Positions 16,704 through 63,021 of a DNA stretch of 64,000 bases are shown here, piece after piece. This DNA is from Beroe forskalii (taxonomy: Eukaryota; Ctenophora; Nuda; Beroida; Beroidae): positions 1 to 64,000 of the forward strand of contig WFMF01000049.1 of assembly GCA_011033025.1 (NCBI GenBank), given 5' to 3'. A program made the position numbers and the translations under genes. The notes beneath the pieces were generated by a model that worked only from the letters and a program-made list of their open reading frames with translations, was not told where the DNA came from and did no database searches. Every line of letters begins with the position of its first letter. Within the stretch, counting starts at the first letter, position 1.

Positions 16704-19700
16704 CATTATGGTCCCAGGAGTCACCAAACCAGAATCCCGAAAAATCCGGTCGGCACTTTTCGAGATATGGCCACGCCCTTTTTTTGACCGTGGGAATTTT
16801 TAGTGAAAATCACTAAAAATTCACAAAATGGCAAATAAGGCATGATTATACTCTAATCCCATGTTTTTTGACACGAGAAATCGATTAAAACCATTATCTA
16901 AGCTCTAGACCCAATATTTGGGCCAGTAGGGGCCACGCCCACTTTTTGTCGTGGATATTTTGGCTAAAAATCGGAACTTTCCAAAACATTGGAACATAGG
17001 CATGATTATACTCTAGACCCATGTTTTTGACCCAAGAAATCGATTAAAACCATTATCTAAGCTCTAGACCCAATATTTTGGCCAGTAGGTGCCACGCCCA
17101 CTTTTTGTTGACATGATATTTTAGCTGAAAATCGGAACTTTCCAAAACTTTGTAACATAGGCATGATTATACTCTAAACCCATGTTTTTTGATCCGAAAA
17201 ATCGATTAAAACCACTATCTAAGCTCTAGACCCAATATTTTGGCCATTAGGGGCCACGCCCACTTTTTGTTGACATGGATATTTTGGCTGAAAATCGGAA
17301 CTTTCCAAAACTTTGTAAAATATGCATGATTATTGATTATACTCTAAACCCATGTTTTTTGAACCGAGAAATTGATTAAAATCATCATCTGAGCTCTAGA
17401 CCCAATATTTTGTCCTGTAAGGGCCACTTCTTCTTTTGTTCTGGATATTTTGGCAGAAAAAATGAAAATAGGAACTTTCCAAAATGTAAAACGTTTAAAC
17501 GAAATTAAACATGGACATGATTATACTCAACGTTCACGTTTTTGGTACGAGAAATCTATTGAAGGCATTATCTAATTATCTATGGCCTTAAGCGAATAAT
17601 CTGGCCAATAGCGATAATACCCACATTCTGTCATGGATTCCAACTGTATATCAGAAATAAAGAATACCAAGTAAAGTAGTTAGTAATTCACCAATATCAT
17701 AATTTATGATAATAGTTACTCCCTCATACCCCCATATTGAATGTGATGATAATAATCAGAAGATGTAGCTCATGGTAGTTCAGATGAACAAGGCATTAGA
17801 TGTATGTCAATTAGGAGATTGCTGTTTCGATTCCCATTCCTGAACTTCTGAATACCGTGGTCAGAGAATCTGGCAGTTTGTCAGACTGCGGAATCACGCA
17901 GCTCGGTCGTTCATTCAACCCAGTGTACAGAAGAGTGCAGACGCAAGTAGGAGGGTTAATCTCTGTCTGCCTTGAATCTTGATTCTTGCTGATTAATTGA
18001 CTATACTTGAATCCATAGATTCCTGTCATAAGTTGTAAAGCTGTTAAAAGTTCAACTTACAAAATGAAACAATGTTCAATAAGTTGTGGATGGACAGTGG
18101 AAACTGGTAGATTCTACTTCTATAAAAGGGGACGGACCTGCGAGAGGCTCGGGCAGCCGTGAGGCTTTTGAGAAGTGTCTTAGTGTGCTGGAGGACTGTG
18201 GGTAGAACGAGTTCTGCTCCTCCCCAGTTTCCAGCAGTGTTATTCCATTGCGTAAGGATTCATCTCCTGTGTCTTCGGGCATGTCAAGTCGACTCCTGAG
18301 TCCGAGATACTAAGGATCAATCCTGTCAGTGTTGGCAGACCCGTCGCTTGCCTTGTTAAGTTCAAGATGACCAGTCCTATAGGTCTAGCTTATGATTCTG
18401 CTCAGTTTGTATGTAAAAGATGTCAGTTTCTGCACAGAAGTAGGTGCCAAAATACTCAGCCCAAATGATGCCTAGGTAGTAGGTTACAGCTTTACAGGTA
18501 AAGAGGTAAAATGATGGAACGCAGAGCCACGCAACATGAGTATTTTGGACAGTGGTCACCAGAACAAACATTAGATTTGGTAAAATTTCAATGATAATTT
18601 AAAGCAATTTCGTTTGCAAGCAGTGGACGGAGTGGAAAAAGAGGGCTCTGGTTAGAGTTAAGAGTAAATCAAAATATTATATCTAAGGATTAAAAAAGTC
18701 AGGGAGTAGCACTTTCAATTGATTTGTCGTGTGAAATAGGCTATGCTATAATCAAAGAAGCCAAGTAAGGAAGTGAGAGTGGCTGGAATCTATATGGCCT
18801 TTCTTTTTCAGCCTTAGATAATGCTTTCAATCGACGTCTGCCAAAATCATGCGTATAATCATGTCCATGTTATAAATTTTTGGAAACTTCCGATTTTTCA
18901 CAAATTCATAAATATTATAAAATTGGACTTGACCCCGACTGGCCAAAATATTTTTGGGCCTACAGTACTATGATACTTTCAAGCGATTTCTATTATCGAA
19001 AAACATGGGTTTACAGTATAATTATGCCTCTGTTGCAACGTTTTGGTAAGTTCCGATTTTTGGCCAAAATATAATCTGAAAAAAGTTAGCGTGGCCCCTA
19101 CAGGACAAAATATTGAGTCTAGAGCTCAGATGATGGTTTTAATCGATTTCTCGATTCAAAAAACATGGGTTTAGAGTATAATCATGCCTATTTTACAAAG
19201 TTTTGGAAAGTTCCGATTTTCAGCCATGTCAACAAAAAAGGGCGTGGCCCCTAATGGCCAAAATATTGGGTCTAAAGCTTAGATAGTGGTTTTAATCGAT
19301 TTTTCGAGTCAAAAAACATGGGTTTAGAGTATAATCATGCCTATGTTACAAAGTTTTGGAAAGTTCCGATTTTCAGCCAAAATATCCATGTCAACAAAAA
19401 AGGGCGTGGCCCCTAATGGCCAAAATATTGGGTCTAAAGCTTAGATAGTAGTTTTAATCGATTTTTCGGGTCAAAAAACATGGGTTTAGAGTATAATCAT
19501 GCCTATGTTACAAAGTTTTGGAAAGTTCCGATTTTCAGCCAAAATATCCATGTCAACAAAAAAGGGCGTGGCCCCTAATGGCCAAAATATTGGGTCTAGA
19601 GCTTAGATAGTGGTTTTAATCGATTTTTCGGGTCAAAAAACATGGGTTTAGAGTATAATCATGCCTATGTTACAAAGTTTTGGAAAGTTCCGATTTTCAG

Positions 19701-20123
19701 CCAAAATATCCATGTCAACAAAAAGTGGGCGTGGTCCCTACTGGCCAAAATATTGGGTCTAGAGCTTAGATAATAGTTTTAATCGATTTCTTGGGTCAAA
19801 AAACATGGGTCTAGAGTATAATCATGCCTATGTTCCAATGTTATGGAAAGTTACGATTTTTAGCCAAAATATCCACGACAAAAAGTGGGCGTAGCCCCTA
19901 CTGGCCCGAATATTGAGTCTAGAGCTTAGATAATGGTTTTAATCGATTTCGCGTGTCAAAAAACATGGGATTAGAGTATAATCATGCCTTATTTGCCATT
20001 TTGTGAATTTTTAGTGATTTTCACCAAAAATTCCCACGGTCAAAAAAAGGGCGTGGCCATATCTCGAAAAGTGCCGACCGGATTTTTAGGGATTCTGGTT
20101 TGGTGACTCCTGGGACCATAATG
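16704..20123. mobile_element. Foldback-like element with long inverted arms of tandem subrepeats
   Basis: The left arm (16704-17580) and right arm (about 18836-20123) are inverted copies, both ending in CATTATGGTCCCAGGAGTCA. Each arm is mostly a tandem array of a roughly 150-165-bp unit containing GGGGCCACGCCC, ATCGATTAAAACCA and GGCATGATTATACTCTA. The roughly 1.25-kb centre differs in composition and holds coding-like minus-strand frames. Long inverted arms of tandem repeats around a unique loop are typical of foldback transposons. No transposase and no clear target duplication were seen. Confidence 0.75.
17811..18309 (-). CDS. Two coding-like exons in the loop of the foldback element
   Basis: Exon A (18309-18138) follows an acceptor gattgatccttag and encodes YLGLRSRLDMPEDTGDESLR through FSKASRLPEPLAG, ending at a phase-1 donor GCAG/GTCCGT. 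Exon B (18022-17811) follows acttatgacag in phase 1 and encodes IYGFKYSQLISKNQD ... FRSSGMGIETAIS-stop. Phases match and composition is protein-like (acidic and Ser-rich). A further open frame at 18377-18571 (minus) has hydrophobic and aromatic stretches and could be an upstream membrane segment. No family is recognised; it may be a captured host tail or chance. Confidence 0.3.
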
Positions 20124-22419: not shown

Positions 22420-23479
22420 TTCCCACTAGTGCGAACCGCCGATTCGGCGCCGATCAGCGCCGAATCGGCGCCTATAGGCGCCTATAAGTTTTTTTCGGCG
22501 CCGATTCGGCGCCTATAGGCGGTACCGCTTTTAGGCGCCTATAGGCGCCTATAATTGACATTCTCCAATTTTTCGGCGGTCATCGGCGCCTATAGGCGCC
22601 GATAAGCGCCTATGCACCGCCTATCGGCGCCGTCGGCGCTTTTCGACCGCTTATCGGCGCCTTAGTTTTCAACCGCCTATAGGCGCCGATACTGTTTCTT
22701 CATCCCCGGCGCCGATTTTGCCTTCTAGCAATCTGTGTTCTTCCACCTTTTTTCGGCGCCTATAGGCGCCTATAGGCGCCGATGAATTAAAACAGTCCTA
22801 AATTGGCGTGCGCTTTCGTCAGGTTAGGGTTTGGGGTTAGGGTTAGGGTTTGGGTTAGGGTTTGGGTTAGGGTTTGGGTTAACCCTGACCCTAACCCTAA
22901 CCCTAACCCTAACCCTAACCCTAACCCAACCCTAACCCTAACAACCCCAAGCCTAGCCCTAATCCTGACCCAAATGTGGAAGACATACCGTGCAACGATG
23001 TTGCGGGCCAATTTAGGACTACTTTAATTCATCGGCGCCTATAGGCGCCTACAGAATTTAGGCCAATGAATGTAGGTCATTGACTCGGAGCTCAGCTAAT
23101 AAAACTCATCCTCGCTCCTTCAGGACTGTCTTAATTCATCGAAAAAAAGGGAAGAATATCGGCGCCTATAGGCGCCGATACGTAAGATGAAAACAGCATC
23201 GGCGCCTATAGGCGCCTATAGGCGGTTGAAAACATAGGCGCCGATAAGCGGTCGAAAAGCGCCGACGGCGCCGACAGGCGGTGCATAGGCGCTATCGGCG
23301 CTTATCGGCGCCTATAGGCGCCGATGACCGCCGAAAAATTGGAAAATGTCAATTATAGGCGCCTATAGGCGCCTAAAAGCGGTACCGCCTATAGGCGCCG
23401 AATCGGCGCCGAAAAAACTTATAGGCGCCGATTCGGCGCTCATGATCGGCGCCGAATCGGCGGTTTGCATTAGTGGGAA
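22420..23479. repeat. 1.06 kb palindromic element of GGCGCCTATAGGCGCC words
   Basis: The left end (TTCCCACTAGTGCGAACCGCC) and right end (GGCGGTTTGCATTAGTGGGAA) are inverted, and the arms match across about 400 bp each. The arms are themselves built from the self-complementary word GGCGCCTATAGGCGCC and variants, so they are nested palindromes. The right arm carries a small insertion (about 23055-23130). The centre holds telomere-like repeats. No open frame of note; probably a non-autonomous DNA element. Confidence 0.85.
22823..22945. repeat. Head-to-head telomere-like repeats (TTAGGG then CCCTAA)
   Basis: From 22823 to 22879 the strand reads TTAGGG and TTTGGG variants, then from 22880 it switches to CCCTAA repeats that run to about 22945. 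This is the orientation of two chromosome ends joined head to head. Position at the exact centre of a palindromic element suggests element structure rather than a fused chromosome end. Confidence 0.85.
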
Positions 23480-34962: not shown

Positions 34963-35515
34963 TTACGTGTCCTGGATACCATTATTTCCCACTAGTAGAA
35001 GTGATTCTACCGAGTCTGGGGAAGGATGTGATAACCTTAACGTGTAGAATTTCATGATAAGCCTGCAGAGAAAGGCATGCCATCACCAGCGCTCCATACC
35101 ATACCTCGACGGTGACCAAACCCCCATAATTTGCTAATTATCCAGGCATAATCAAATGATACTCCTGCTATCCCGTGGTACGCATATCACTCCCATCAGG
35201 TGATTTCAACGGATAAGGACGCGATGCAGAAGTGGTAATTTCATTTTATTATATTCAAGACCGCTTTGTTCGAGGGTAAATGTTTTTAAATAAATTCGAA
35301 GCATTTTTCCTTTTGATGCAACGTTAAAGACGGTTTTTCGTGGCTGTTTTACTTATGTAGTTATGTGAGCCATCCTAAACTTCTTAATCTGACAATCTTA
35401 AGTAGCTGGAAATGGTTATATAAGGTTATAAGGTTGTAAACATATATTTCTATTTCTACGCATAACATTTATAATCACAATTATAAATCAAATTTGAGGC
35501 ATCGTCCAAGTTGGA

Positions 35516-37001
35516 ATGTCTGCTACAAAGGTTTCCGTTCCCTGCAACTTTGGTGTGGAGAATCTCCGTGACGAATTCCATGGAAATGTGACCGTGGAAT
35601 TCGAGGATTCCACCTCCATGATGGCCAGTTCCCTGATTTTGTCGTGGAACAGTGAGGTGTTCACCCGAATGTTCACAGAGTACAGACAGACCACTGTAGA
35701 GGTTAAGGACTTCTCCAAGGACGTTGTTGTAATGTTCCTGGAAAGCCTTTACAGTGGCGACCTTGTTCTGGAACAGAGCCATTTCAGAGAGATGAACAAG
35801 ATATCTCACGCTTTCAGAGTGAGATGGATGTCTGAGAAATGCACTGCTGCATTCACCCGATTCTGTGAGTCCTGCTCACAGAATTTCAAGGAAATGGCGT
35901 TTCTTTTCGACGTGGCTATTTACTCTGAAGCTACTCTGAAATGCAAGGATTTGATGGAGGTTGTGAAAGCCACATTTTCCAGAATTGAGAATGTGGCTGA
36001 ACTGTTTGTGAAGCAGTATCTGAGAGAAAACTTCGTAAACATCAAGACAGTGACTGTGGCACACCTCCTTGGAATGTGCGATGGGCAATACATTCCAGTG
36101 TTGCGAGCTGTGAAAGAGCATATCCAGATGGAAGAAGGGATAACAGCCACTGTCCACGCTGTGTTTTCTAATACAGATGTGATGCAGTGCTTGGTGAACA
36201 ACACCCAGTTATACGACGATGTGATGGACGTGCTGTTCAAAAAGTTTGATAATACGAACCAGAAAGATCTGGACTTGGTTAAAAGTTTGACTAAGGCTCT
36301 AAGACACCAGGATGGTGCATCTTCGAGTACCCGTGATGCGACTGTGAGGGAATCAGGTTATACCACGATTCCAAATTTATTCTCCGATGGGAAGCTGTTA
36401 CGGGACGTACCTGACGAGGGTATTGTGAAAGCTCTGTTGGAGGTACCTGGAATCAATACCTTTATGGTCCTAGAATATGCGCATTCTTGTGGGAATGAAA
36501 CTCGTCGTAGAGAAATACTGGAAAGTATTCCTGGTATTTGTACTGCACGATCTCTGTGTATGGTGCCTAGACTGTTTATTAAGAGATTCCGTTTTCCTGA
36601 ACGCTTACAGAACTTATCTCAATCAGTGGTATCTGACAGTGACACAGCGGTTATTGTTGGTACAGAGAAGACAACATTCGAACAATTAATAAACACTGAA
36701 CACTACTACAAGTTCGTATTCCGTCACCCTCAGTGTAACATACAGAACTCAGAATGTGGGTTTATTCTGAAGGTAACTCCAGCTTCACGGAAAGAAACTG
36801 GTAAGTTTAACATGGAGCTAAAAACGGATGATAAGGACTACCCTGCTGACTTGCACTGTCACAGATGCTATCAGCAGTGCTAACATACACCTTGTTATTG
36901 AGCAGTACTACGATGGTAGATGGTCTAAAAGGTGCATATCCTGGTGGGGTAGATCGGAGTACGACAGGGTGTGTAGAATAGGGATTTCTTCGTCAATTTA
37001 A
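35516..37001 (+). CDS. Intronless BTB-domain protein
   Basis: An open frame from ATG 35516 runs 455 codons to 36883. Residues about 12-110 form a BTB/POZ fold (DEFHGNVTVEFEDSTSMMAS, then FLESLYSGDLVL and a BACK-like helical stretch), as in substrate adaptors of cullin-3 ligases. The C-terminal half (VFRHPQCNIQNSECGFILKV) resembles a beta-rich domain and is not assigned. Near 36845 the better codon pattern moves to another frame (LTCTVTDAISSANIHLVIEQ, then YYDGRWSKR) and stops at 37001. One extra C in the CCC of GACTACCCTG would explain this, so the true protein may be about 490 residues. A single exon inside a merlin intron suggests a retrocopy origin or an expanded intronless family. Confidence 0.8.
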
Positions 37002-38748: not shown

Positions 38749-41700
38749 TTTTGCACGGCCGTGCAAAAAAACGAAAAAGTCGAATAATTCAAAAACTGGC
38801 ACTTAGAAATTGATGAAACTTGCCAAATTTACTTATTAGACATAGAGAAACATCCCTGAGGAGTTTTATAGAAATCAACGGAGCCGTTTTCATTTTAAAC
38901 ACAAGGAAAGTTTTCAAAAATCAAAAATCGAAAAAGTCGAATAATTCAAAAACTGGCACTTAGAAATTGATGAAACTTGCCAAATTTACTTATCAGACAT
39001 TGATAAACATTCCTGTGGAGTTTTATGAAAATCAACGGAGCCGTTTTTATTTTAAATGCAAGGAAAGTTTTCAAAAATGTATACCGTGCAAAAAATTGAA
39101 AAAGTCGAATAATTCAAAAACTGGCACTTAGAAATTGATAAAACTTTCCAAATTTACTTATTAGACATTGATAAACATTCCTGCGGAGTTTTATAAAAAT
39201 CAACGGAGCCGTTTTCATTTTAAACACAAGGAAAGTTTTCAAAAAATCAAAAATCGAAAAAGTCGAATAATTCAAAAACTGGCACTTAGAAATTGATGAA
39301 ACTTGCCAAATTTACTTATCAGACATTGAAGAACATTCCTATGGAGTTTTATGAAAATCAACGGAGCCGTTTTTATTTTAAACGCAAGGAAAGTTTTCAA
39401 AAATGTATACCGTGCAAAAAATCGAAAAAGTCGAATAATTCAAAAACTGGCTCTTAGAAATTGATGAAACTTGCCAAATTTACTTATGAGACATTGATGA
39501 ACATTCCTGTGGAGTTTTATGAAAATCAACGGAGCCGTTTTTATTTTAAACGCAAGGAAAGTTTTCAAAAATGTATACCGTGCAAAAAATCGAAAAAGTC
39601 GAATAATTCAAAAACTGGCACTTAGAAATTGATGAAACTTGCCAAATTTACTTATCACATATTGATAAACATTCCTGGGAGTTTTATAAAAATCAACGGA
39701 GCCGTTTTCATTTTAAACACAAGGAAAGTTTTCAAAAATGTATACCGTGCAAAAAATCGAAAAAAGTCGAATAATTCAAAAACTGGCACTTAGAAATTGA
39801 TGAAACTTGCCAAATTTACTTATCAGATATTGATAAACATTCCTGGGGAGTTTTATAAAAATCAACGGAGCCGTTTTTATTTTAAACGCAAGGAAAATTT
39901 TCAAAATGTATACCGTGCAAAAAATCGAAAAAGTCGAATAATTCAAAACTGGCGCTTAGAAATTGATAAAACTTTCCAAATTTACTTATCAGACATTGAT
40001 AAACATTCCTGCGGAGTTTTATAAAAATCAACGGAGCCGTTTTCATTTTAAACACAAGGAAAGTTTTCAAAAATCAAAAATCGATAAAGTCGAATAATTC
40101 AAAACTGGCACTTAGAAATTGATGAAACTTGCCAAATTTACTTATCAGATCTTGATAAACATTCCTGTGGAGTTTTATGAAAATCAACGGAGCCGTTTTT
40201 TATTTTAAACGCAAGGAAAGTTTTCAAAAATGTATACCGTGCAAAAAATCGAAAAAGTCGAATAATTCAAAAACTGGCGCTTAGAAATTGATAAAACTTT
40301 CCAAATTTACTTATCAGACATTGATAAACATTCCTGCGGAGTTTTATAAAAATCAACGGAGCCGTTTTCATTTTAAACACAAGGAAAGTTTTCAAAAATC
40401 AAAAATCGAAAAAAGTCGAATAATTCAAAAACTGGCACTTAGAAATTGATGAAACTTGCCAAATTTACTTATCAGACATTGATAAACCATCCTGTGGAGT
40501 TTTATGAAAATCAACGGAGCCGTTTTTATTTTAAACGCAAGGAAAGTTTTCAAAAATGTATACCGTGCAAAAAATCGAAAAAGTCGAATAATTCAAAAAC
40601 TGGCACTTAGAAATTGATGAAACTTGCCAAATTTACTTATCAGATATTGATAAACATTCCTGGGAGTTTATAGAAATCAACGGAGCCGTTTTCATTTTAA
40701 ACACAAGGAAAGTTTTCAAAAATCAAAAATCGAAAAAGTCGAATAATTCAAAAACTGGCACTTAGAAATTGATGAAACTTGCCAAATTTACTTATCAGAC
40801 ATTGATAAACATTCCTGTGGAGTTTTATGAAAATCAACGGAGCCGTTTTATTTTAAATGCAAGGAAAGTTTTCAAAAATGTATACCGTGCAAAAAATTGA
40901 AAAAGTCGAATAATTCAAAAACTGGCACTTTAGAAATTGATAAAACTTTCCAAATTTACTTATTAGACATTGATAAACATTCCTGCGGAGTTTTATAAAA
41001 ATCAACGGAGCCGTTTTCATTTTTAAACACAAGGAAAGTTTTCAAAAATCAAAAATCGAAAAAGTCGAATAATTCAAAAACTGGCACTTAGAAATTGATG
41101 AAACTTGCCAAATTTACTTATCAGACATTGAAGAACATTCCTATGGAGTTTTATGAAAATCAACGGAGCCGTTTTTATTTTAAACGCAAGGAAAGTTTTC
41201 AAAAATGTATACCGTGCAAAAATCGAAAAAGTCGAATAATTCAAAACTGGCTCTTAGAAATTGATGAAACTTGCCAAATTTACTAATCAGACATTGATAA
41301 ACATTCCTTTGAAGTTTTATGAAAATCAACGGAGCCGTTTTTATTTTAAACGCAAGGAAAGTTTTCAAAAAGTATACCGTGCAAAAAATCGAAAAAGTCG
41401 AATAATTCAAAAACTGGCACTTAGAAGTCGATGAAACTTGCCAAATTTACTAATCAGACATTGATTACCATTCCTGCGGAGTTTTATAAAAATCAACGGA
41501 GCCGTTTTCATTTTAAACACAAGGAAAGTTTTCAAAAATGTATACCGTGCAAAAAATCGAAAAAGTCGAATAATTCAAAACTGGCACTTAGAAATTGATG
41601 AAACTTGCCAAATTTACTTATCAGATATTGATAAACATTCCTGGGGAGTTTTATAAAATCAACGGAGCCGTTTTATTTTAAACGCAAGGAAAATTTTCAA

Positions 41701-44300
41701 AAATGTATACCGTGCAAAAAATCGAAAAGTCGAATAATTCAAAAACTGGCGCTTAGAAATTGATAAAACTTTCCAAATTTACTTATCAGACATTGATAAA
41801 CATTCCTGCGGAGTTTTATAAAAATCAACGGAGCCGTTTTCATTTTAAACACAAGGAAAGTTTTCAAAAATCAAAAATCGATAAAGTCGAATAATTCAAA
41901 ACTGGCACTTAGAAATTGATGAAACTTGCCAAATTTACTTATCAGATCTTGATAAACATTCCTGTGGAGTTTTATGAAAATCAACGGAGCCGTTTTTATT
42001 TTAAACGCAAGGAAAGTTTTCAAAAATGTATACCGTGCAAAAAATCGAAAAAGTCGAATAATTCAAAAACTGGCGCTTAGAAATTGATAAAACTTTCCAA
42101 ATTTACTTATCAGACATTGATAAACATTCCTGCGGAGTTTTATAAAAATCAACGGAGCCGTTTTCATTTTAAACACAAGGAAAGTTTTCAAAAAATCAAA
42201 AATCGAAAAAAGTCGAATAATTCAAAAACTGGCACTTAGAAATTGATGAAACTTGCCAAATTTACTTATCAGACATTGATAAACATTCCTGTGGAGTTTT
42301 ATGAAAATCAACGGAGCCGTTTTTATTTTAAACGCAAGGAAAGTTTTCAAAAATGTATACCGTGCAAAAAATCGAAAAAGTCGAATAATTCAAAAACTGG
42401 CACTTAGAAATTGATGAAACTTGCCAAATTTACTTATCAGATATTGATAAACATTCCTGGGGAGTTTTATAAAAATCAACGGAGCCGTTTTTTATTTTAA
42501 ACGCAAGGAAAATTTTCAAAAATGTATACCGTGCAAAAAAATCGAAAAAGTCGAATAATTCAAAAAACTGGCTCTTAGAAATTGATGAAACTTGCCAAAT
42601 TTACTTATCAGACATTGATAAACATTCCTGTGGAGTTTATGAAAATCAAAGGAGCCGTTTTATTTTAAACTCAAGGAAAGTTTTCAAAATGTATACCGTG
42701 CAAAAAATTGAAAAAGTCTAATAATTCAAAAACTGGCACTTAGAAATTGATAAAACTTTCCAAATTTACTTATCAGACATTGATAAACATTCCTGTGGAG
42801 TTTGATGAAAATCAACGGAGCCGTTTTATTTTAAACGCAAGGAAAGTTTTCAAAAATGTATACCGTGCAAAAATTGAAAAAGTCGAATAATTCAAAACTG
42901 GCACTTAGAAATTGATAAAACTTTCCAAATTTACTTATCAGACATTGATAAACATTCCTGCGGAGTTTTATAAAAATCAACGGAGCCGTTTTCATTTTTA
43001 AACACAAGGAAAGTTTTCAAAAAATCAAAAATCGAAAAAGTCGAATAATTCAAAACTGGCACTTAGAAATTGATGAAACTTGCCAAATTTACTTATCAGA
43101 CATTGATAAACATTCCTGTGGAGTTTTATGAAAATCAACGGAGCCGTTTTTATTTTAAACGCAAGGAAAGTTTTCAAAATGTATACCGTGCAAAAAATCG
43201 AAAAAAGTCGAATAATTCAAAAACTGGCACTTAGAAATTGATGAAACTTGCCAAATTTACTTATCAGACATTGATAAACATTCCTGTGGAGTTTTATGAA
43301 AATCAACGGAGCCGTTTTTATTTTAAACTCAAGGAAAGTTTTCAAAAATGTATACCGTGCAAAAATCGAAAAAGTCGAATAATTCAAAACTGGCTCTTAG
43401 AAATTGATGAAACTTGCCAAATTTACTTATTAGATATTGATAAACATTCCTGGGGAGTTTTATAAAAATCAACGGAGCCGTTTTTATTTTAAACGCAAGG
43501 AAAATTTTCAAAATGTATACCGTGCAAAAATGGAAAAAGTCGAATAATTCAAAAACTGGCACTTAAATTGATGAAACTTGCCAAATTTACTTATCAGACA
43601 TTGATAGACATTCCTGCGGAGTTTTGTGGAAATCAACGGAGCCGTTTTCATTTTAAACACAAGGAAGGTTTTCAAAAAATCAAAAATCGAAAAAGTCGAA
43701 TAATTCAAAAACTGGCACGGTATACATTTTTGAAAACTTTCCTTGCGTTTAAAATAAAAACGGCTCCGTTGATTTTCATAAAACTCCACAGAATGTTAAT
43801 CAATGTCTGATAAGTAAATTTGGCAAGTTTCATCAATTTCTAAGTGCCAGTTTTGAATTATTGACTTTTTCGATTTTTGCACGGTATACATTTGAAAATT
43901 TTCCTTGCGTTTAAAATAAAAAACGGCTCCGTTGATTTTCATAAACTCACGTGTTTATCAATGTCTCATAAGTAAATTTGGCAAGTTTCATCACTAAGTG
44001 CCAGTTTTGAATTATTCGACTTTTACACGGTATTATTTTTTGCGTTTAAAATAAAGACTTTATTTTAAACGCAAGGAAAGTTTTCAAAAAGTGCCAGTTT
44101 TTGAACTTTTGGACTTTTTCGATTTTTGCATTTTTGAAAACTTTCCTTGTGTTTTAAATAAAAACAGCTCCTTTGATTTTTATAAAACTCCCACAGAATG
44201 TGTTTGTCAATGTCTGATAAGTAAATTTGGCAAGTTTCATCAATTTCTAATTGCCACTTTTAATTATTCGACTTTTCGATTTTGAAGTTTTGGAATTTTT
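38749..44300. repeat. Satellite array, alternating 157- and 168-bp units, with an inversion near 43717
   Basis: About 30 direct units run from 38765 to 43716. Each holds GTCGAATAATTCAAAAACTG, TTGATGAAACTTGCCAAATT and TCAACGGAGCCGTTTT. Type A (about 157 bp) has ACACAAGGAAAG and lacks the 11-base GTATACCGTGC segment. Type B (about 168 bp) has ACGCAAGGAAAG and contains it. From about 43717 to 44300 the units are inverted, shorter and more diverged. The left border carries a perfect palindrome TTTGCACGGCCGTGCAAA at about 38751. The many open frames are repeat shadows. It lies in the merlin intron. Confidence 0.95.
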
Positions 44301-51564: not shown

Positions 51565-53307
51565 CTTTTTTAACCTGAGGTTCTGCATCATCTCGTGTTG
51601 AGCAGACATCGTAAGGACAACCCTGATAAGCTTCATTTTTGCAGCAGATACTGTCGATACTGATGGGTCCCCCGTCACATGCTTCACCCACTCTTTCCTG
51701 GGTGTTCTCTAACCCATAACTGCAGCAAAACCTCCCTTGGTAGAATGCCCAAGGGTAATCCTCCGGACATTCCCCTGAAACTATATCAATGGAGCTAGAC
51801 TTGATATATTTTAATTGACAGAAATACAGAAATACCCCCTGCCCCCTGAGGAATATCATCTACGTGTGCCACATGCACAGAGTTCCCAATCATTTCCCTC
51901 CTCTTACTGGACTGATATAGGCGCGTGTATATGACAGTTTTGTGGAATCTGGGATCCATTACCCAAAAGTCACGACCTGGCCCATTTCCTATCACATTTA
52001 TCGTTACCTGTATTCCTTGTTATTTTGTAGTAAATTTTCTCTGGAGGAACTTTGTAGATGTTACTCAACTTCAGAAACACCTTGACATTCTTTACTTTCA
52101 CGGATTCCATGTCTGTGAACTGGCTGCAACTGTCGTGGAAGGATTGTAGCGGTGAACCATTTACAGAAAAAACCGACTCCGTGGTCATGTCCCAGGTTAT
52201 CATGAAAAGGCCGTTTTTCGATACTAGCGCACTGGAAATGCAAGCTGTGTTATCATCCAGTTTGAACGATATCACAAGTTCATTATTGTAATATTTTATG
52301 CGCATCAAGGCCCTTGTTTCCACGGCATCTTGAAACGTCGTATCGACACTGAAATCATCGCCTTCCATTGCTGTCGACTGGATTTTGTACTGCACAGTAT
52401 CTGATGCAGGGTCGAATGTTTCAAGTGGAATTACAGGTTCTTTTACTTCCTTCCAGTCACCTGGGATCAATGGTTTTGATTATTGATTTTTTGCATCATA
52501 TATTACACATGTTATTGAGTTATCAACACGGAGAAGTTGAGTAGTGGTACTGGTTACAAGACTGAAATTCAAATTCTGTTACGATATGCAATGATGCCGT
52601 TAATGTTCGGAACCATTTGCAGTTCGGAACCATTTGCAGTTTGCACTTTGCACCTATACCGCTTCCATGGTTAAAAAGTTAACGCTAGTTTCATGGCTAT
52701 CTATCCTTGATCGGACGTTTGATAGCTATTTTTAGTTTTTTAGAGGAAGAAGCTTAAACGAGAAGTATTTTCATCAGATGCTTTCTGAAATTGTTGACAT
52801 TAAATCAGTGAATTCTAATGCTTTTGTTCAATTCATAATTCCGTGGTGTATTCATTTTTCTGGTCAGTAAGCTTCATGAAAATTAGAAATCATTTCAATC
52901 CATGTATTCATGTATTCGTATTATGCTGATTGCTGATTGTTAAGTTTTCAATTTGTTTCCCTTCTTATCAGTTTATCATCTGTTTACTATTTAGCTAACT
53001 TCAACAATAAGTGATGTTTCTCGAATTGTGGCAATCATGATATCATTACCTGTACATGTGTGAACAGAATAACTGATTGTAGATACAAGTAAAACGCCCG
53101 TTGTGCACTCCCAGAGCCCTTCTTTCTTGGCAAAGTAACATTTCTTTGACACAGAATCAAACAGGAAAAATTCGCATCCGTCCAAGTCTTGACACCGCCC
53201 TATGCATTGATTTGCTGATTGCACCGTCATCTGATCTTCCAAAGCACGTAGTGCACGTCTTTCATCAAATTCCAGACATCCTCCTCTCCAAAGCTCACCA
53301 CAATGTC
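51565..53307 (-). CDS. Mosaic extracellular protein, upstream exons (PAN-like, beta-rich, Cys-rich)
   Basis: Three symmetrical phase 1-1 exons. 53307-53050 (86 codons) is PAN/Apple-like: GHCGELWRGGCLEF, NQCIGRCQDLDGCEFFLFD, KKCYFAKKEGLWEC and a closing TISYSVHTC. 52460-52008 (151 codons) is an unassigned, probably beta-sandwich module (DWKEVKEPVIPLETFDPASD ... KVFLKLSNIYKVPPEKIYYK). 51774-51565 (70 codons) is Cys-rich (GECPEDYPWAF, FCCSYG, SIDSICCKNEAYQGCPYDVC) with the spacing of small extracellular eight-cysteine-like modules. Donors are GTAATG, GTAACG and GTATGA. The 5' end with a signal peptide was not found; it would lie beyond the minisatellite that begins at this first acceptor. The gene is antisense within merlin introns. 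Confidence 0.75.
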
Positions 53308-55071
53308 CTGGGATCGGAGTGCACTAAATTAGAACCTAACAAAGCTCACCACAATGTCCTGGGATCGGAGTGCACTAAATTAGAACCTAACAAAGCTCAC
53401 CACAATGTCCTGGGATCGTTTAGAACCTAACAAAGCTCACCACAATGTCCTGGGTTTGGGGTACACTAAATTAGAACCTAACAAAGCTCACCACAATGTC
53501 CTGGGTTTGGGGTGCACTAAATTAGAACCTAACAAAGCTCTACAATGTCCTGGGTTTTGGGGTTCACAATGTCCTGGGTTTGTCCTGGGTTTGGGGTTCA
53601 CTAAATTATAACCTAACAAAGCTCACCACAATGTCCTGGGTTTGGGGTTCACTAAATTATAACCTAACAAAGCTCACCACAATGTCCTGGGTTTGGGGTT
53701 CACTAAATTAGAACCTAACAAAGCTCACCACAATGTCCTGGGATCGGAGTGCACTAAATTAGAACCTAACAAAGCTCACCACAATGTCCTGGGTTTGGGG
53801 TGCACTAAATTAGAACCTAACAAAGCTCACCACAATGTCCTGGGTTTGGGAGCACTAAATTAGAACCTAACAAAGCTCACCACAATGTCCTGGGTTTGGG
53901 GTGTACTAAATTAGAACCTAACAAAGCTCACCACAATGTCCTGGGTTTGGGGTTCAGTAAATAAGAACCTAACAAAGCTCACCACAATGTCCTGGGTTTG
54001 GGGTGCACTAAATTAGAACCTAACAAAGCTCACCACAATGTCCTGGGTTTGGGGTGCACTAAATTAGAACCTAACAAAGCTCACCACAATGTCCTGGGTT
54101 TGGGGTGCACTAAATTAGAACCTAACAAAGCTCACCACAATGTCCTGGGTTTGGGGTGCACTAAATTAGAACCTAACAAAGCTCACCACAATGTCCTGGG
54201 TTTGGGGTGTACTAAATTAGAACCTAACAAAGCTCACCACAATGTCCTGGGTTTGGGGTGCACTAAATTAGAACCTAACAAAGCTCACCACAATGTCCTG
54301 GGTTTGGGGTGCACTAAATTAGAACCTAACAAAGCTCACCACAATGTCCTGGGTTTGGGGAGCACTAAATTAGAACCTAACAAAGCTCACCACAATGTCC
54401 TGGGATCGGAGTGCACTAAATTAGAACCTAACAAAGCTCACCACAATGTCCTGGGTTTGGGGTGTACTAAATTAGAACCTAACAAAGCTCACCACAATGT
54501 CCTGGGTTTGGGTGCACTAAATTAGAACCTAACAAAGCTCACCACAATGTCCTGGGTTTGGGGTACACTAAATTAGAACCTAAAAAAGCGCACCACAATG
54601 TCCTGGGTTTGGGGTGTACTAAATTAGAACCTAACAAAGCTCACCACAATGTCCTGGGTTTGGAGTGCACTAAATTAGAACCTAACAAAGCTCACCACAA
54701 TGTCCTGGGTTTGGGGTGCACTAAATTAGAACCTAACAAAGCTCACCACAATGTCCTGGGTTTGGGGTGCAGTAAATAAGAACCTAACAAAGCTCACCAC
54801 AATGTCCTGGGTTTGGGGTGTACTAAATTAGAACCTAACAAAGCTCACCACAATGTCCTGGGTTTGGAGTGCACTAAATTAGAACCTAACAAAGCTCACC
54901 ACAATGTCCTGGGTTTGGGGTGCACTAAATTAGAACCTAACAAAGCTCACCACAATGTCCTGGGTTTGGGGTTCAGTAAATTAGAACCTAACAAAGCTCA
55001 CCACAATGTCCTGGGTTTGGGGTGCACTAAATTAGAACCTAACAAAGCTCACCACAATGTCCTGGGTTTGA
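53288..55071. repeat. 51-bp minisatellite built from a PAN-exon splice acceptor
   Basis: About 35 copies of a 51-bp unit (CACAATGTCCTGGGTTTGGG ... AACCTAACAAAGCTC). On the minus strand every unit reads CCAAACCCAG/GACATTGTGGTGAGCTTT, which is the acceptor and first 18 bases of the PAN exon at 53307. The array therefore arose by amplification of that intron-exon junction. Because 51 is a multiple of three, the plus strand shows long frames of KAHHNVLGLGCTKLEPN repeats; these are not taken as genes. Confidence 0.95.
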
Positions 55072-55220
55072 GTCGTAACAAACTAAAACTAGAGTTTCCA
55101 CATAAACCTCATGGATTTCCGGGCGATGAAATGACTAACTTGGTAAATTGGTATTCCCAATTTCCTATCATAGCTGTAAGTTTGTAAATAATTTTTATAA
55201 AATGTTAAAAATGTGATAAC

Positions 55221-55457
55221 ATGTACCTTCCGAATCCACTGTTGCCAGTAGAAGTGAAGCCAGGCAAGTCAGTTCACGTAGCATCATCATATCTTCCCGG
55301 ATCTAGCCTACATGAGCGCGGGAACCTGAACGACAAGGAAATATTGAGCTATTTGAGGCGGGGCATCGAATTTATGGGGGCCCCTCACGCAAAAGGTTAC
55401 GTCACAAAAGCGCTATATCCACGTGTGATAATGACGTCATCTTCCTACGAATATTAG
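55221..55457 (+). CDS. Small open frame (78 codons) with a nearby poly(A) signal
   Basis: ATG 55221 opens MYLPNPLLPVEVKPGKSVHV ... RGNLNDKEILSYLRRGIEFM ... VIMTSSSYEY-stop. Composition is protein-like and an AATAAA follows at 55537. Just upstream (55073-55167) another plus-strand frame (LEFPHKPHGFPGDEMTNLVN) ends at a possible donor ATAGCT/GTAAGT and might be a first exon. No domain recognised. It is an unknown small gene or a relic. Confidence 0.35.
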   Translation: MYLPNPLLPVEVKPGKSVHVASSYLPGSSLHERGNLNDKEILSYLRRGIEFMGAPHAKGYVTKALYPRVIMTSSSYEY

Positions 55458-55536
55458 TCTTGCATATCATTAACTCGCTCAGACGAATCCTACTTAAGCA
55501 ACCGGGAGGGTGTTAGCCGACTGCTGGTGTGATTTG

Positions 55537-55542
55537 AATAAA
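55537..55542 (+). promoter_or_regulatory. Poly(A) signal AATAAA after the 55.2 kb frame
   Basis: An exact AATAAA lies 80 bases after the stop of the 78-codon frame. It may also be chance in AT-rich DNA. Confidence 0.35.
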
Positions 55543-56074
55543 GATGAACCGGGTTATGCGGATATAAAGCAAGTTTTGATCATTACTCTCTCCCCCTGGG
55601 ATCGCCCTGCTAAGTTCTTCCTTTGTTAAATCGGGGATGAAATCACGATAGCAAGCAGCAGCTTTGATTATTCAAGAAAGCCGAGAGAATGGGAATTAAA
55701 ATATGGTGATAGGTAAATGACGGATCGTGAACCCATTAGAGGCACACGTTCAGGAGTCTCCTGCAGTGAGCAGTGTGAGTTGGCGCCTGCAGTCTGAAGC
55801 TGCTTTAAGCTGGGTAATGCTGCTATCTCAGAGGGGTAGCATTGAATTCATTGAGGGATGATAAACGTTGTCTGACCCATTATATTATGCTTTAAAGGGG
55901 GCCAGACAATGTCTGACAAGATCAACGAGAAGCAGGCTAAATGAACTTTGAAGTTTGAAACAGTAACACCGGACTAATAGCACTATGGTGACACAGATCC
56001 GTCAACAATATGAAATATATTCTTAAGTTAATTTTAATTCAAATAGAATTTATAACTTGAAGTAAAAGCAGTAT

Positions 56075-57302
56075 AAAAATTTTGTGGAACTGTGCCATGG
56101 CATAAATCCGCCATGGCACAAATTAAGGTCATATGAAAATATACCAATGACCCCCTACTGACCCCCTGCTGACCCCCTACTGACCCCCTGCTGACCCCCT
56201 ACTGAACCCCTTCTGACCCCCTACTGACCCCCCTGGAACCCCTGCTGACCCCTGGTGAACCCCTACTGACCCCTGCTGACCCCCCCTACTGACCCTACTG
56301 ACCCCCTGCTGACCCCCTATTGACCCCCTGGTGAACCCCTACTGACCCCCTGGTGAACCCCTACTGACTACTTTCTGATCATTGTTTCAATTCTTATCAT
56401 GAGTGATTTTTAACATCTAAAAGCACTTGAAATTTCACTTTGCCTTATCACAAAGTGATTTAGGCAAATTGTGACCAGTCGACCGATGCACCCTCAACAC
56501 ACCAAAATACCATAAACACACCCTACATGTTAATAAGTATGCTATGTTAGTATTTTAGCTATATTAGTTGTGTTAGTTATGTTTGCCATAACTGAAATAA
56601 ATAACATGTCAAGCGTAATGATAAGGCAAAAGTGAAATTCAAAGTGCTTTAGATGTTAAAATCACTCATGATAAGAATTGAAACAATGATCAGAAAGTAG
56701 TCAGTAGGGGTTCACCAGGGGGTCAGTAGGGGTTCAGCAGGGGGTCAGTGGGGGTCAGTAGGGGTTCACCAGGGGGTCAGTAGGGGTTCACCAGGGGGTC
56801 AGTAGGGGTTCAGTAGGGGGTCAGCAGGGGGTCAGTAGGGGGTCAGCAGGGGGTCATTGGTATAGTTTCATACGACCCAAATTAAAACTGATTTCAATTT
56901 GAAATCAATTCGAAAATGTTATTCTTGACATCAATTTCAAATTGATAATGATTTCAATTCCAAATTAAAATCGATTTCGAATTGATTACAATTCGCATGG
57001 ACGAGCTCTTTGTTTATGCGATTTTTAGCTCAACGTTTTCAAATCATTCTCAACCTAATTTCGAAATAGTATCAATTTTGAGGTGATGTTGATTTCATTG
57101 ATTAATATTCCATTGATTAATATTGATTTTGATACTAATAATTTCGTTTTGATCTTAATTTCGAATTGATATTTATTTCGAATTGAAATAAAATCAAGAT
57201 AAGTTTGAAAATCAAACTTATTCGAGTTGATTTCAAATTAACATCAAGTTTTTGACAATTTGGCGGATTTATGCCATGGTACAGTTCCGCCACGAAATTT
57301 TC
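56075..57302. mobile_element. 1.2 kb TIR element with inverted 12-bp minisatellites
   Basis: The ends GGAACTGTGCCATGGCATAA and (reverse complement of the right end) GGAACTGTACCATGGCATAA are inverted at about 56085 and 57285 and extend outward through AAAATTT-G-GTGG to flanking TA. Inside, CTGACCCCCTA repeats (56146-56370) are mirrored by TAGGGGGTCAG repeats (56700-56862), with matching TCATGAGTGATTTTTAACATC/complement segments between. The right part (56880-57250) is AATTTCGAATTGAT-rich. No transposase; a mariner-type TA target is possible. Confidence 0.75.
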
Positions 57303-57966
57303 GTAATTCAATTATTATACAATTTTGAAAAATGTACTAAAGAGTCCTTCCCAGATGTAAATAGAAGAATATTGAACTGATCAGAGCCGTGATGAATATT
57401 CATAATTTCCTATCAATTCCTCTCCCTTAGACTTAGAGCTTTAAATTAATTCCTTGGGTTTATCTAGATTATATAATTTCGTCTCCTTTGATAAATGGTA
57501 CCATTCACACACTAATCACTAATGACCATTAATACCGACTATCATCGCATTGTGAACCTTCACATCATGAATATTCTCCCCTGATCAAGACAGCCGTTTA
57601 AACTCCGACTCGATCATCTCTAACATGAGAGTTAGAATATGCCTGTATGGTAATGATGCTGGGCGGAGACCACATACAATTACATAATGGCCCTCTTGTC
57701 TGATCCTAATACTATACTCATCGAGTGTTATATCAATTAATAATGCCTTCTCACTTTTCGAGCTGTGCAACCACCTCGACTGCGTCTCGGCAGTAATGTG
57801 CACAGAGTGAAAATGAATTAATTTGTTATAGGCCTTCTGACGACAGCTGTGTTCAAGTGAGCAGACCTTTAATTTCAAATAGTGCACTGGTGCACAGTAC
57901 ATGTGAAAACAAATAAATTCATAAAAATTGGTGCTAGCTGTTCTAGTTTTGCATCTCTCAAATAAG

Positions 57967-58426
57967 AACCTAAATCCTGACCCTTTATATACCATATTCC
58001 CTGTCATCAGTAGTTTGACCCCCCTCCCCTTGGACGCCCTGAAAGTAGACAGGAAGTGTGACTCTGTGGAGTACCTGGATGAGGACAAGTATCAGACCCT
58101 GCGACGGGTAAAGCAATACCTTGCATTTTGTGAAGCAATACCTTGCAATTTGTAAAGCAATATACATTTTACTTGTTGCTTTTTATATTATTTCAAAAGC
58201 TTAACTATTCAGTATTTTGGAGCAGACACAGACAACGCCTTTGAGTCCTATTTAGTACTGTTTTTACATTCGCTGCAATTTCTAATCTTTTGCTAGGAAC
58301 TTTTTTGGGGTTTCCTTATTTTTTTAGTACTAGTAGCGAAAATGAATAAAAGCATGTAGATTTTACTTTTTTCAGATCACAGCCGGTGAAACACGGTCCA
58401 GGATTGCATTCTTCCACTCGCTGTAA
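57967..58426 (+). CDS. NF2: Merlin/NF2-like protein, C-terminal exons and stop
   Basis: Exon 57967-58107 ends SVEYLDEDKYQTLRR with donor CGACGG/GTAAAG. Exon 58376-58426 (acceptor acttttttcag) encodes ITAGETRSRIAFFHSL-stop. This is the C-terminal ERM-association domain: DKYQTLRR matches ERM DKYKTLRQ, and SRIAFFHSL matches the merlin ending SRVAFFEEL better than the ezrin ending. The start of the first exon is chosen for phase 0 after caaataag; it could begin 45-50 bases later if another exon precedes it. The actin-binding ERM tail is absent, as in merlin. Confidence 0.85.
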
Positions 58427-60522: not shown

Positions 60523-60840
60523 TGTAGTGAAGGGTTGCTTATACTCATCACGCGTTTAGGGTTGCTTGGCACATTACTCATCACACGTGTAGGGTTGCTT
60601 GGCACACTACTCATCACGTGTGTAGGGTTGCTTGGCACACTACTCATCACGCGTTTAGGGTTGCTACTCATCACGTGTGAAGGGTTGCTACTCATCACAC
60701 GTTAAGGGGTTGCTAATCATCACGTGTGTAGGGTTGCTTGGCACACTACTCATCACGCGTGTAGGGTTGCTTGGCACACTACTCATCACGCGTGTAGGGT
60801 TGCTACTCATCACGTGTGTAGGGTTGCTCCACGGGTGGAG
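60523..60840. repeat. 33-bp minisatellite GTAGGGTTGCTTGGCACACT
   Basis: Roughly ten units of GTAGGGTTGCTTGGCACACT plus ACTCATCACGCGT, some shortened by loss of the TTGGCACAC part. The minus-strand frame through it is a repeat shadow. Confidence 0.9.
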
Positions 60841-61047: not shown

Positions 61048-63021
61048 TTAATAAATGGTGTCTTTATGAATAATGAATACAATTTTATCCCGACCTTTAT
61101 CCTCCTCCCCTCCTCTCTCCCCCTCTTCCGCTTGAGGTGGGATGTGCCCAGTCCTGTGGAACAGTTTCTCCTTGCTCACGACGATCGTTGGGAGTAGGGA
61201 TTTCTTCTTTCGTCGGTACCGGGTCTCGTACCATATACCGACGGCCAGGATGATCAGGCCAATCACGATACCCGAACAGATTGCTATTATTTTCCAAAGT
61301 GTGTCCCTGCCTGAATTTTCTTGGTTTAATGGGTCTGGATGTTGGTATTGAGATAAGTGCTATGAAATGATGAAAAGCTCGCAAAAACACACAAATATGG
61401 AATTTGTGGATTTGAAATTCATTCTCAAAAAACTTCATTTAAATTTGGCGTTCTTGGTTCGGTAGTTTTAAATTGAAGACATTTTCTACGAGTGATCATT
61501 TTGGACGCTTACTTATGCCAGTTCCACTCGTTGGATTTTCTGAGTCTACGTTATCCCTTTTGTCCTGATCCGTTGATCCGCTATCTCTCACTTCTTCTGA
61601 CTGGCCAGTTTCTGAAAAGATCATTACATTGATTTTGGGTCCATTTTCAATTTAATACCGCTATCATTTTTGCCAACTCTCATTTATATAGGATCAAAGG
61701 TCTTACCAAATATTTCCTTGTGTTTGGACTCACCCGTGCTTATGGTACAGTTAGCTCCTGTCCATCCCTCCAAACAAATCTTGTTTCCTGTGACAGATTC
61801 GCACGTGTAGTGGCCTGTTTCGCTGTCTTGTGCTATGCACATCTTATCACATAGCCCGTAAGATCCTGGCCCGCAAATCGCCTGACAGTGATAGAGATTC
61901 ATTGTGATGGATCATTGATGTGTCTGACAGCTGTTATAAGGAATCATTAACTCCCTCCATTTGGCATTTTCATGTCTGAAATAATTATTCAACCATATTC
62001 CATATGCAAATGTGACGCAATCTGAATCATGCAACCGTCTGATTTTGAATTCACCATTCTGATTCAGAACACAACTCCGTCTAAGCCTAATAAAACGAAT
62101 GGACAGTCTCACAGCACATGAACATTTACATAGAAAATTTATGCCCTCGCACCACAGATACAGATATAAACTGTAGGAGCAAAAGTCCATATCATATTTG
62201 TATTTTCGAGACTCACATCGTAGCTGAAAGTGAGGGAGGCACTGCCGCTGGATAAGCTCACTTTATCGCTCATCACACCAGCCTGATGGTAGGTGAACTC
62301 TGCCATTTTGTACTCGTTGTTGGGGTAGTTCTTCTCAACCCCCATCACCACCAACTCAAACTTTACACGGACCTAGTTGAGAAATATATTTTAAGTGTGT
62401 GAGTGTGACGAATCATTTGAATCTCAAACATGCCCTTCAAGAAGCTCCCAGGTTTTTCTGTTAAAAGATTTAATTCATTCGAGCTTAAAAATAACTTTGA
62501 TTTAGCCTGATTCAATTTTTCGTTTCTGACCTTTCCTGCGAAGTTAAGAAGTAGAGGATTAGACCACTTTGTCCCTAGGGTCGATGAGAAACTCTCCACG
62601 TCTCCGATGTTGTCATGTGATGTCAGTTGACTAACTTCCTCTAATATAACATCGTTTGCTCGAACACTGAGAGGGTTTTCCTTATTAACTGAGATTAATT
62701 ATAATTTCTGTTTCGGACTATATGTCTTAAAGTTGAAATTACTGACCATCTCGAGATTTGGGTCATATGGTTGGACAGCTTGCTGACGATTTCAGGCTCA
62801 TGAGAAGGATTTAGATCGATTAATCAATTCGCGTTGCGGTCAATTGCATAATTGTTATGGTCCTTGACATAAGTGTATAAAAGCTGATCAATGTACCTGG
62901 TGAATAGCGTGATGGTGAAAGTGTTGACACACTGACCAGCACACGTGTCCCCACCGACTGACTCTGATGCAGGGTTGTTGTAGGAGTGGATGTGGAGCGA
63001 CAGGGAACCATCTCCCAGACA
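61048..63021 (-). CDS. DSL-family Notch ligand without EGF repeats (5' end missing)
   Basis: Six exons with consistent phases: 63021-62897, 62666-62531, 62372-62217, 61881-61734, 61611-61513, 61310-61048. The first three form an MNNL-like N-terminal domain (LSLHIHSYNNPASESVGGDT, then CAGQC, FAGK, VRVKFELVVMGVEKNYPN). Exon four is a clean DSL domain with six cysteines: CGPGSYGLCDKMC, GHYTC, GNKICLEGWTGANC. A Ser/Glu-rich linker follows (SEEVRDSGSTDQDKRDNVDS), then one transmembrane helix (IIAICSGIVIGLIILAVGIW), a basic stop-transfer RYRRKKK and a 60-residue tail ending KDTIY. It should be a type I membrane ligand activating Notch on neighbouring cells. No EGF repeat lies between DSL and membrane. 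A signal-peptide exon was not found upstream of 63021. Confidence 0.85.

Follow-up and report, generated by a model that had tools for sequence, protein, structure and literature searches.

A 51-bp minisatellite carrying copies of an intron-exon boundary in a predicted PAN-domain gene of the ctenophore Beroe forskalii

The window analyzed here, 64,000 nucleotides of the forward strand of contig WFMF01000049.1, contains a tandem array whose units repeat, on the minus strand, the end of an intron and the beginning of the exon that follows it. The locus raises the question of how such an array arose inside a gene, and whether its copied acceptors take part in splicing or are passed over in favor of the one acceptor that joins a complete exon.

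Structure of the array

The array and the sites within it are as follows.

53289-55070, minus strand: 51-bp minisatellite
53404-53629, minus strand: irregular patch with units of 40, 49, 24 and 11 nt amid normal ones
53308-53312, minus strand: CCCAG of the terminal (true) acceptor of the PAN exon, in the context CACTCCGATCCCAG
55062-55066, minus strand: CCCAG of the 5'-most acceptor copy

Tandem Repeats Finder (TRF) reports the 51-nt period in two rows (53289-53554 and 53581-55070). Read on the minus strand, the unit consists of 19 nt of exon start, GACATTGTGGTGAGCTTTG, which is identical to the start of the exon beginning at 53307, and 32 nt of intron end with the consensus TTAGGTTCTAATTTAGTGCACCCCAAACCCAG. 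The motif CCCAG occurs 37 times in the array region and is followed by GACA every time (37/37), that is, at 36 copies and at the true acceptor; the array thus comprises 36 units. Thirty of these are 51 nt long and two are 50 nt, while units of 49, 40, 24 and 11 nt occur once each. They fall into 18 distinct sequences, the commonest of which is seen 10 times, and mean identity to the consensus is 97.6% across the thirty 51-nt units. The 24-nt boundary sequence CCCAGGACATTGTGGTGAGCTTTG occurs 34 times at no more than three mismatches (33 exact, with the true boundary counted in), compared with an expectation of 0.00 from 100 dinucleotide shuffles. These counts bear out the proposal of the initial annotation that an acceptor and exon start have been amplified here. 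Its estimate of about 35-fold amplification becomes 36 extra copies besides the true boundary, and the exon part shared by the units, given there as 18 bases, measures 19 nt. Four units searched against the 216-Mb assembly gave 11 matches, all within the array at 53289-55070, although a search of this kind cannot prove rarity. The window has no Rfam match at gathering thresholds.

Other repeats in the window include a 168-bp tandem array of about 29 copies (38759-44024), followed by a shorter piece whose consensus is seemingly in the opposite orientation, and two 162-bp arrays (16838-17427 and 18999-19989) whose consensus units look reverse-complementary. At 22822-22971, GGTTAG repeats run directly into TAACCC repeats, forming a head-to-head telomere-like pair inside the contig. 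Elsewhere in the assembly, a 13,339-base contig encodes a very divergent COX1 that needs TGA to be read as tryptophan; ARAGORN finds no tRNA in this contig, although the bacterial code used makes this a weak test. According to PMC6991124, mitochondrial genomes of ctenophores are fast evolving, lack tRNAs and use a code in which TGA specifies tryptophan; the traits of the contig thus suggest a ctenophore host.

A predicted gene around the array

The array lies in the first intron of a gene model with four exons.

55227-55290, minus strand: exon 1 (predicted), MMMLRELTCLASLLLATVDSE plus one base, donor AAG/GTACAT, phase 1
53308-55226, minus strand: intron 1 (predicted from the predicted exons), 1,919 nt
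55071-55226, minus strand: 156 nt of unique sequence in the 5' part of intron 1, preceding the first copy
53050-53307, minus strand: exon 2, PAN domain, 258 nt, phase 1-1, donor CAG/GTAATG
52008-52460, minus strand: exon 3 (predicted), 453 nt, phase 1-1
51565-51774, minus strand: exon 4 (predicted), 210 nt, cysteine-rich, phase 1-1

Joined together, exons 1 to 4 form one open frame of 985 nt, all junctions of which are predicted. The host gene probably encodes a secreted PAN-domain protein. Exon 2 matches the Pfam family PF00024 (PAN; E 5.3e-8) and its paralogues begin at the same place, in agreement with the earlier identification of the exon ending at 53307 as a PAN exon. Among PDB sequences it is most similar to two micronemal proteins (E 8.7e-7 and 3.9e-5); hepatocyte growth factor comes next, with weak matches. 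These are proteins with PAN/apple domains. The predicted product of exon 1 is signal-peptide-like, judged by eye and hydrophobicity only. This exon sits 156 nt beyond the array with the right phase for exon 2. Across 128 kb of strand, two independent phase-1 candidates of the form ATG, hydrophobic stretch and AG/GTR reach at least its hydrophobicity, itself included, and no other candidate of any hydrophobicity has its ATG at 53308-58000 on the minus strand; a scan with stricter thresholds and a stricter donor pattern returned no candidate. The array accounts for 92% of predicted intron 1 (1,763 of 1,919 nt). Splicing of exon 2 at 53308 is predicted from homology and phase, and the array alone is no evidence for it.

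Two PAN-like exons lie further along the minus strand (47111-46867 and 46632-46395). Both start in frame (HCGK, then GGC), and their conserved ends, YSKYTC and YSVNSC, are in another frame; the change of frame may reflect sequencing errors, decay or other exon limits. On the other side of the array, neighboring minus-strand open frames (61051-61911 and 60542-60828) show, by eye, an EGF-like stretch, a membrane-spanning segment and, just downstream, a 33/24-bp array that reads as NPTRVMSSVPS repeats. A single open frame of 461 amino acids with a BTB domain occupies 35498-36880 of the plus strand.

PAN exons elsewhere in the genome

A survey of the genome at E <= 0.01 identified 29 PAN loci, the array locus included. 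The conserved start contains LW in all 28 other PAN exons, followed by GGC in 18, and an AG in matching phase lies no more than 20 nt upstream in 28/28, a loose criterion when taken alone. A tandemly copied acceptor was found in one of the 29 exons, that of the array locus; none of the 28 others is preceded by a tandem array of its own acceptor.

Seven of the 28 other loci have a second similar stretch at a distance of 252-1,618 nt; the nine translations that were checked each begin another PAN domain, identifying these stretches as domain repeats rather than copied boundaries. TRF arrays fall within -40 to +20 of the start of the PAN match at 4/29 loci, namely the array locus, L017, L035 and L037. 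Those at L017 and L035 overlap and represent a single 255-bp coding PAN repeat. That at L037 is an intronic 32-bp repeat with 1.9 copies, which stops 29 nt short of the match and leaves out the exon start. Ten other boundaries of the array region were also checked, and none is copied within 3 kb: the donors of exons 1-4 plus those of the two PAN-like exons downstream (B and C), together with the acceptors of exons 3 and 4 and of B and C.

Acceptor sequences and predicted outcomes of splicing

The acceptor joined to the PAN exon is of a minority type, CCGATCCCAG. The majority type, CCAAACCCAG, which the initial annotation had placed in every unit, is found at 29 of the 37 sites. The sequence GATCCCAG occurs at five sites: the acceptor joining the exon, the following two and a further two within the array. 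A small acceptor matrix was built from 32 sites (29 distinct), mostly from paralogues (27, plus five from the array region). These sites are related to one another, L035 is omitted and L037 looks misassigned; 26 of the 27 paralogue sites read CAG, and CAG and TAG were favored in picking them. On this matrix the terminal acceptor scores -0.3, the 5'-most copy 1.6 and the copies as a whole between -1.2 and 5.7; the value of the terminal acceptor is equaled or exceeded by 21% of minus-strand AGs outside the array. The matrix from paralogous PAN exons thus does not separate the true site from its copies, and site strength does not explain a preference for the terminal acceptor, because that acceptor is no stronger than the copies. 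The donor-like sequence GTGGTGAGC is present 33 times in the array, the exon's own occurrence counted in. It falls within the exon part and is distinct from the exon's donor; its GTGAGC, which is donor-like, begins nine bases past the acceptor.

Exon 1 was joined in silico to every one of the 37 acceptors, and the product was read through exon 3. The terminal acceptor alone keeps the frame open, which supports the initial annotation in that only the last site continues into a full exon, and each of the 36 upstream copies leads to an early in-frame stop in the predicted mRNA. In 33 of these 36 splices the stop comes directly after GHCGELC (32 cases) or GHCGALF (one case), and for three upstream acceptors in the irregular patch it comes somewhat later. 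The extended exons that would start at upstream copies measure 309 to 2,012 nt. Any upstream use is thus predicted to be unproductive.

Origin of the array

The reading that we consider likely is that the array is a mirage-type minisatellite, in which an intron-exon boundary was duplicated and then expanded and in which mostly the terminal acceptor is used. A segment of about 51 bp, made up of the last part of intron 1 and the opening 19 nt of the PAN exon, would have been duplicated in tandem, and slippage or unequal exchange would then have produced the 36 extra copies that fill 92% of the predicted intron. The gene would stay readable because the copy closest to the exon still joins the full exon. 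The spliceosome would mostly pick the terminal acceptor, as this site alone defines an exon of normal size (258 nt) with a nearby donor; mis-splicing to an upstream copy would yield an early stop and no full-length protein. The exon part of the unit belongs to a coding family, in which LW is present in 28/28 other PAN exons, and this indicates that the array derives from the exon rather than the reverse.

The edge of the array that lies farthest from the exon is diverged. The 32-nt stretch that closes with the 5'-most CCCAG departs from the consensus unit at 11 positions, eight of which are transitions. Aligned in register and outside the shared CAAACCCAG, this flank matches the unit at 11 of 19 positions, and six of the eight differences are transitions. 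Three of 948 other CAGs on the strand match at least equally well, and shuffling gives P 0.0045, an optimistic value because the test was chosen after the alignment had been seen. Free local alignment of the unit against the flank does no better than shuffles (P 0.75). Homology of the 5'-most edge copy to the unit is thus moderately supported by these comparisons.

Two adjacent 204-bp blocks of the array differ at only two positions, which points to a recent duplication of several units together. Repeated blocks of two, three and four units are in no excess over shuffles (P 0.71, 0.25 and 1, respectively). Variable sites number 2/19 in the exon part and 9/32 in the intron part (P 0.18), a comparison that gives no sign of selection on the copies. 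Expansion driven by a hairpin was considered and rejected: two units folded as DNA are no more stable than shuffles (z 0.50).

Alternative explanations

The copies could instead be functional decoys, such that upstream acceptors are really used, transcripts are diverted to mRNAs with early stops, and output is tuned by copy number. The 36 extra acceptors are present and TTCTAAT, which we take to resemble the branch point consensus, is found in 29/36 units; the copies score either above the true site or at most 0.9 below it, every upstream copy yields an early stop, and the first copy would give an intron of 165 nt. In its discussion of amphioxus, PMC3087553 allows that copied signals could act as cryptic sites. 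However, amphioxus mirages are reported not to give rise to aberrant mRNAs (PMC3087553, PMC3902484), and the distribution of variable sites (2/19 versus 9/32, P 0.18) is without sign of selection to keep the copies. Competition among the many acceptors, as the initial annotation proposed, would go against this precedent, and use of the copies as decoys is unlikely. The stronger version, in which the array is a copy-number-dependent splicing rheostat whose 36 poison acceptors compete so that array length sets the amount of PAN protein, is a long shot; under such a rheostat, the length of the array may vary between generations or cells. It can also be speculated that the GTGAGC of most copies makes in-frame microexons of 9 nt, each adding HCG.

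It is improbable that all or the downstream part of the gene is decaying or silent, with the array lying inert in a pseudogene. The PAN-like exons at 47111-46867 and 46632-46395, which end in a frame that differs from that of their start, could be taken in this sense, but they may belong to another gene and the shifts may be sequencing errors. Moreover, exons 1 to 4 are open, their phase-1 junctions are consistent and the signal peptide is plausible.

Long near-identical arrays are often misassembled, and both the near-identity of the units over a long array and the irregular patch at 53404-53629 would fit an artefact of copy number or of irregular units; an aberrantly assembled mirage is also noted in PMC3087553. 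Against this, the array contains 18 distinct unit types in order and occupies a single locus, so that an assembly error would change the count and not the existence of the array, and we give this explanation very little credence. A 17-residue repeat protein encoded on the plus strand, which the divisibility of 51 by 3 and one frame open for up to 186 amino acids might suggest, is rejected as next to impossible on its frame breaks, given that 6/36 units are not 51 nt long, that the open stretch is split among several frames and that boundary homology accounts for the sequence.

Significance and comparison with known systems

As a mirage-type minisatellite, the array would offer a clean test, set up by nature, of the way in which the spliceosome selects a single 3' splice site when one intron holds 37 that are alike, with all wrong choices predicted to be unproductive. 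It is also large, and changes in copy number and splicing could be followed in it jointly. The repetition of a boundary is a phenomenon that already has a name, with precedents that the initial annotation did not mention. Among the matches listed in one literature collection, judged by title and the start of the abstract, none describes such an array in a ctenophore or this many acceptor copies.

Three precedents bear on the locus. In the Rogers model, cited in PMC3087553, introns are gained by tandem duplication of AG/GT proto-splice sites. The array resembles this model in that a tandem duplication surrounds splice signals. It differs in that an existing acceptor is multiplied and no new intron bounded by copied AG/GT is seen: the array lies within the phase-predicted intron, and CCCAG is followed by GA (37/37) and not by GT.

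In the human IFI6 gene (6-16/G1P3), a minisatellite provides multiple splice donors (Turri et al. 1995, cited in PMC4526556), and downstream repeat units are reported in the latter source to be used as donors. The two cases share a minisatellite in which a splice site is present many times over. The duplicated boundary in B. forskalii is, however, an acceptor and not a donor, and use is reported for IFI6 whereas the present acceptor copies are candidate sites.

The closest likeness is to the mirages of amphioxus, which PMC3087553 describes as minisatellite-like tandem duplications of an intron-exon boundary, with many units carrying splice signals. In the globin gene BflGb6, the duplicated segment joins an intron's 3' end to the beginning of the following exon and is present in six or three units of 150-160 bp; BflGb9 is likewise described as a mirage, and Adh3 is cited with units of 10-72 bp and somatic instability (PMC3087553). 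PMC3902484 adds a troponin C mirage and imperfect repeats in PGBD5. According to PMC3087553, the amphioxus data suggest that regular splicing is undisturbed, and edge units escape homogenization. The B. forskalii array has the same anatomy as BflGb6, including a boundary unit outside homogenization. Its unit spans an exon-intron boundary (19 nt of exon and 32 nt of intron, with the boundary set by PAN homology and phase), its units carry splice signals (37 CCCAG/GACA sites), and a homogenized interior (97.6% mean identity) is accompanied by a diverged edge (11 differences, with moderate support for edge homology). Where BflGb6 has six and three units of 150-160 bp, this array has 36 extra copies of 51 bp that fill 92% of the predicted intron, and its host is a ctenophore rather than a cephalochordate, which suggests that boundary minisatellites are not restricted to cephalochordates. 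On these sequence-level features, the array is best filed as a large and clear example of a mirage-type minisatellite.
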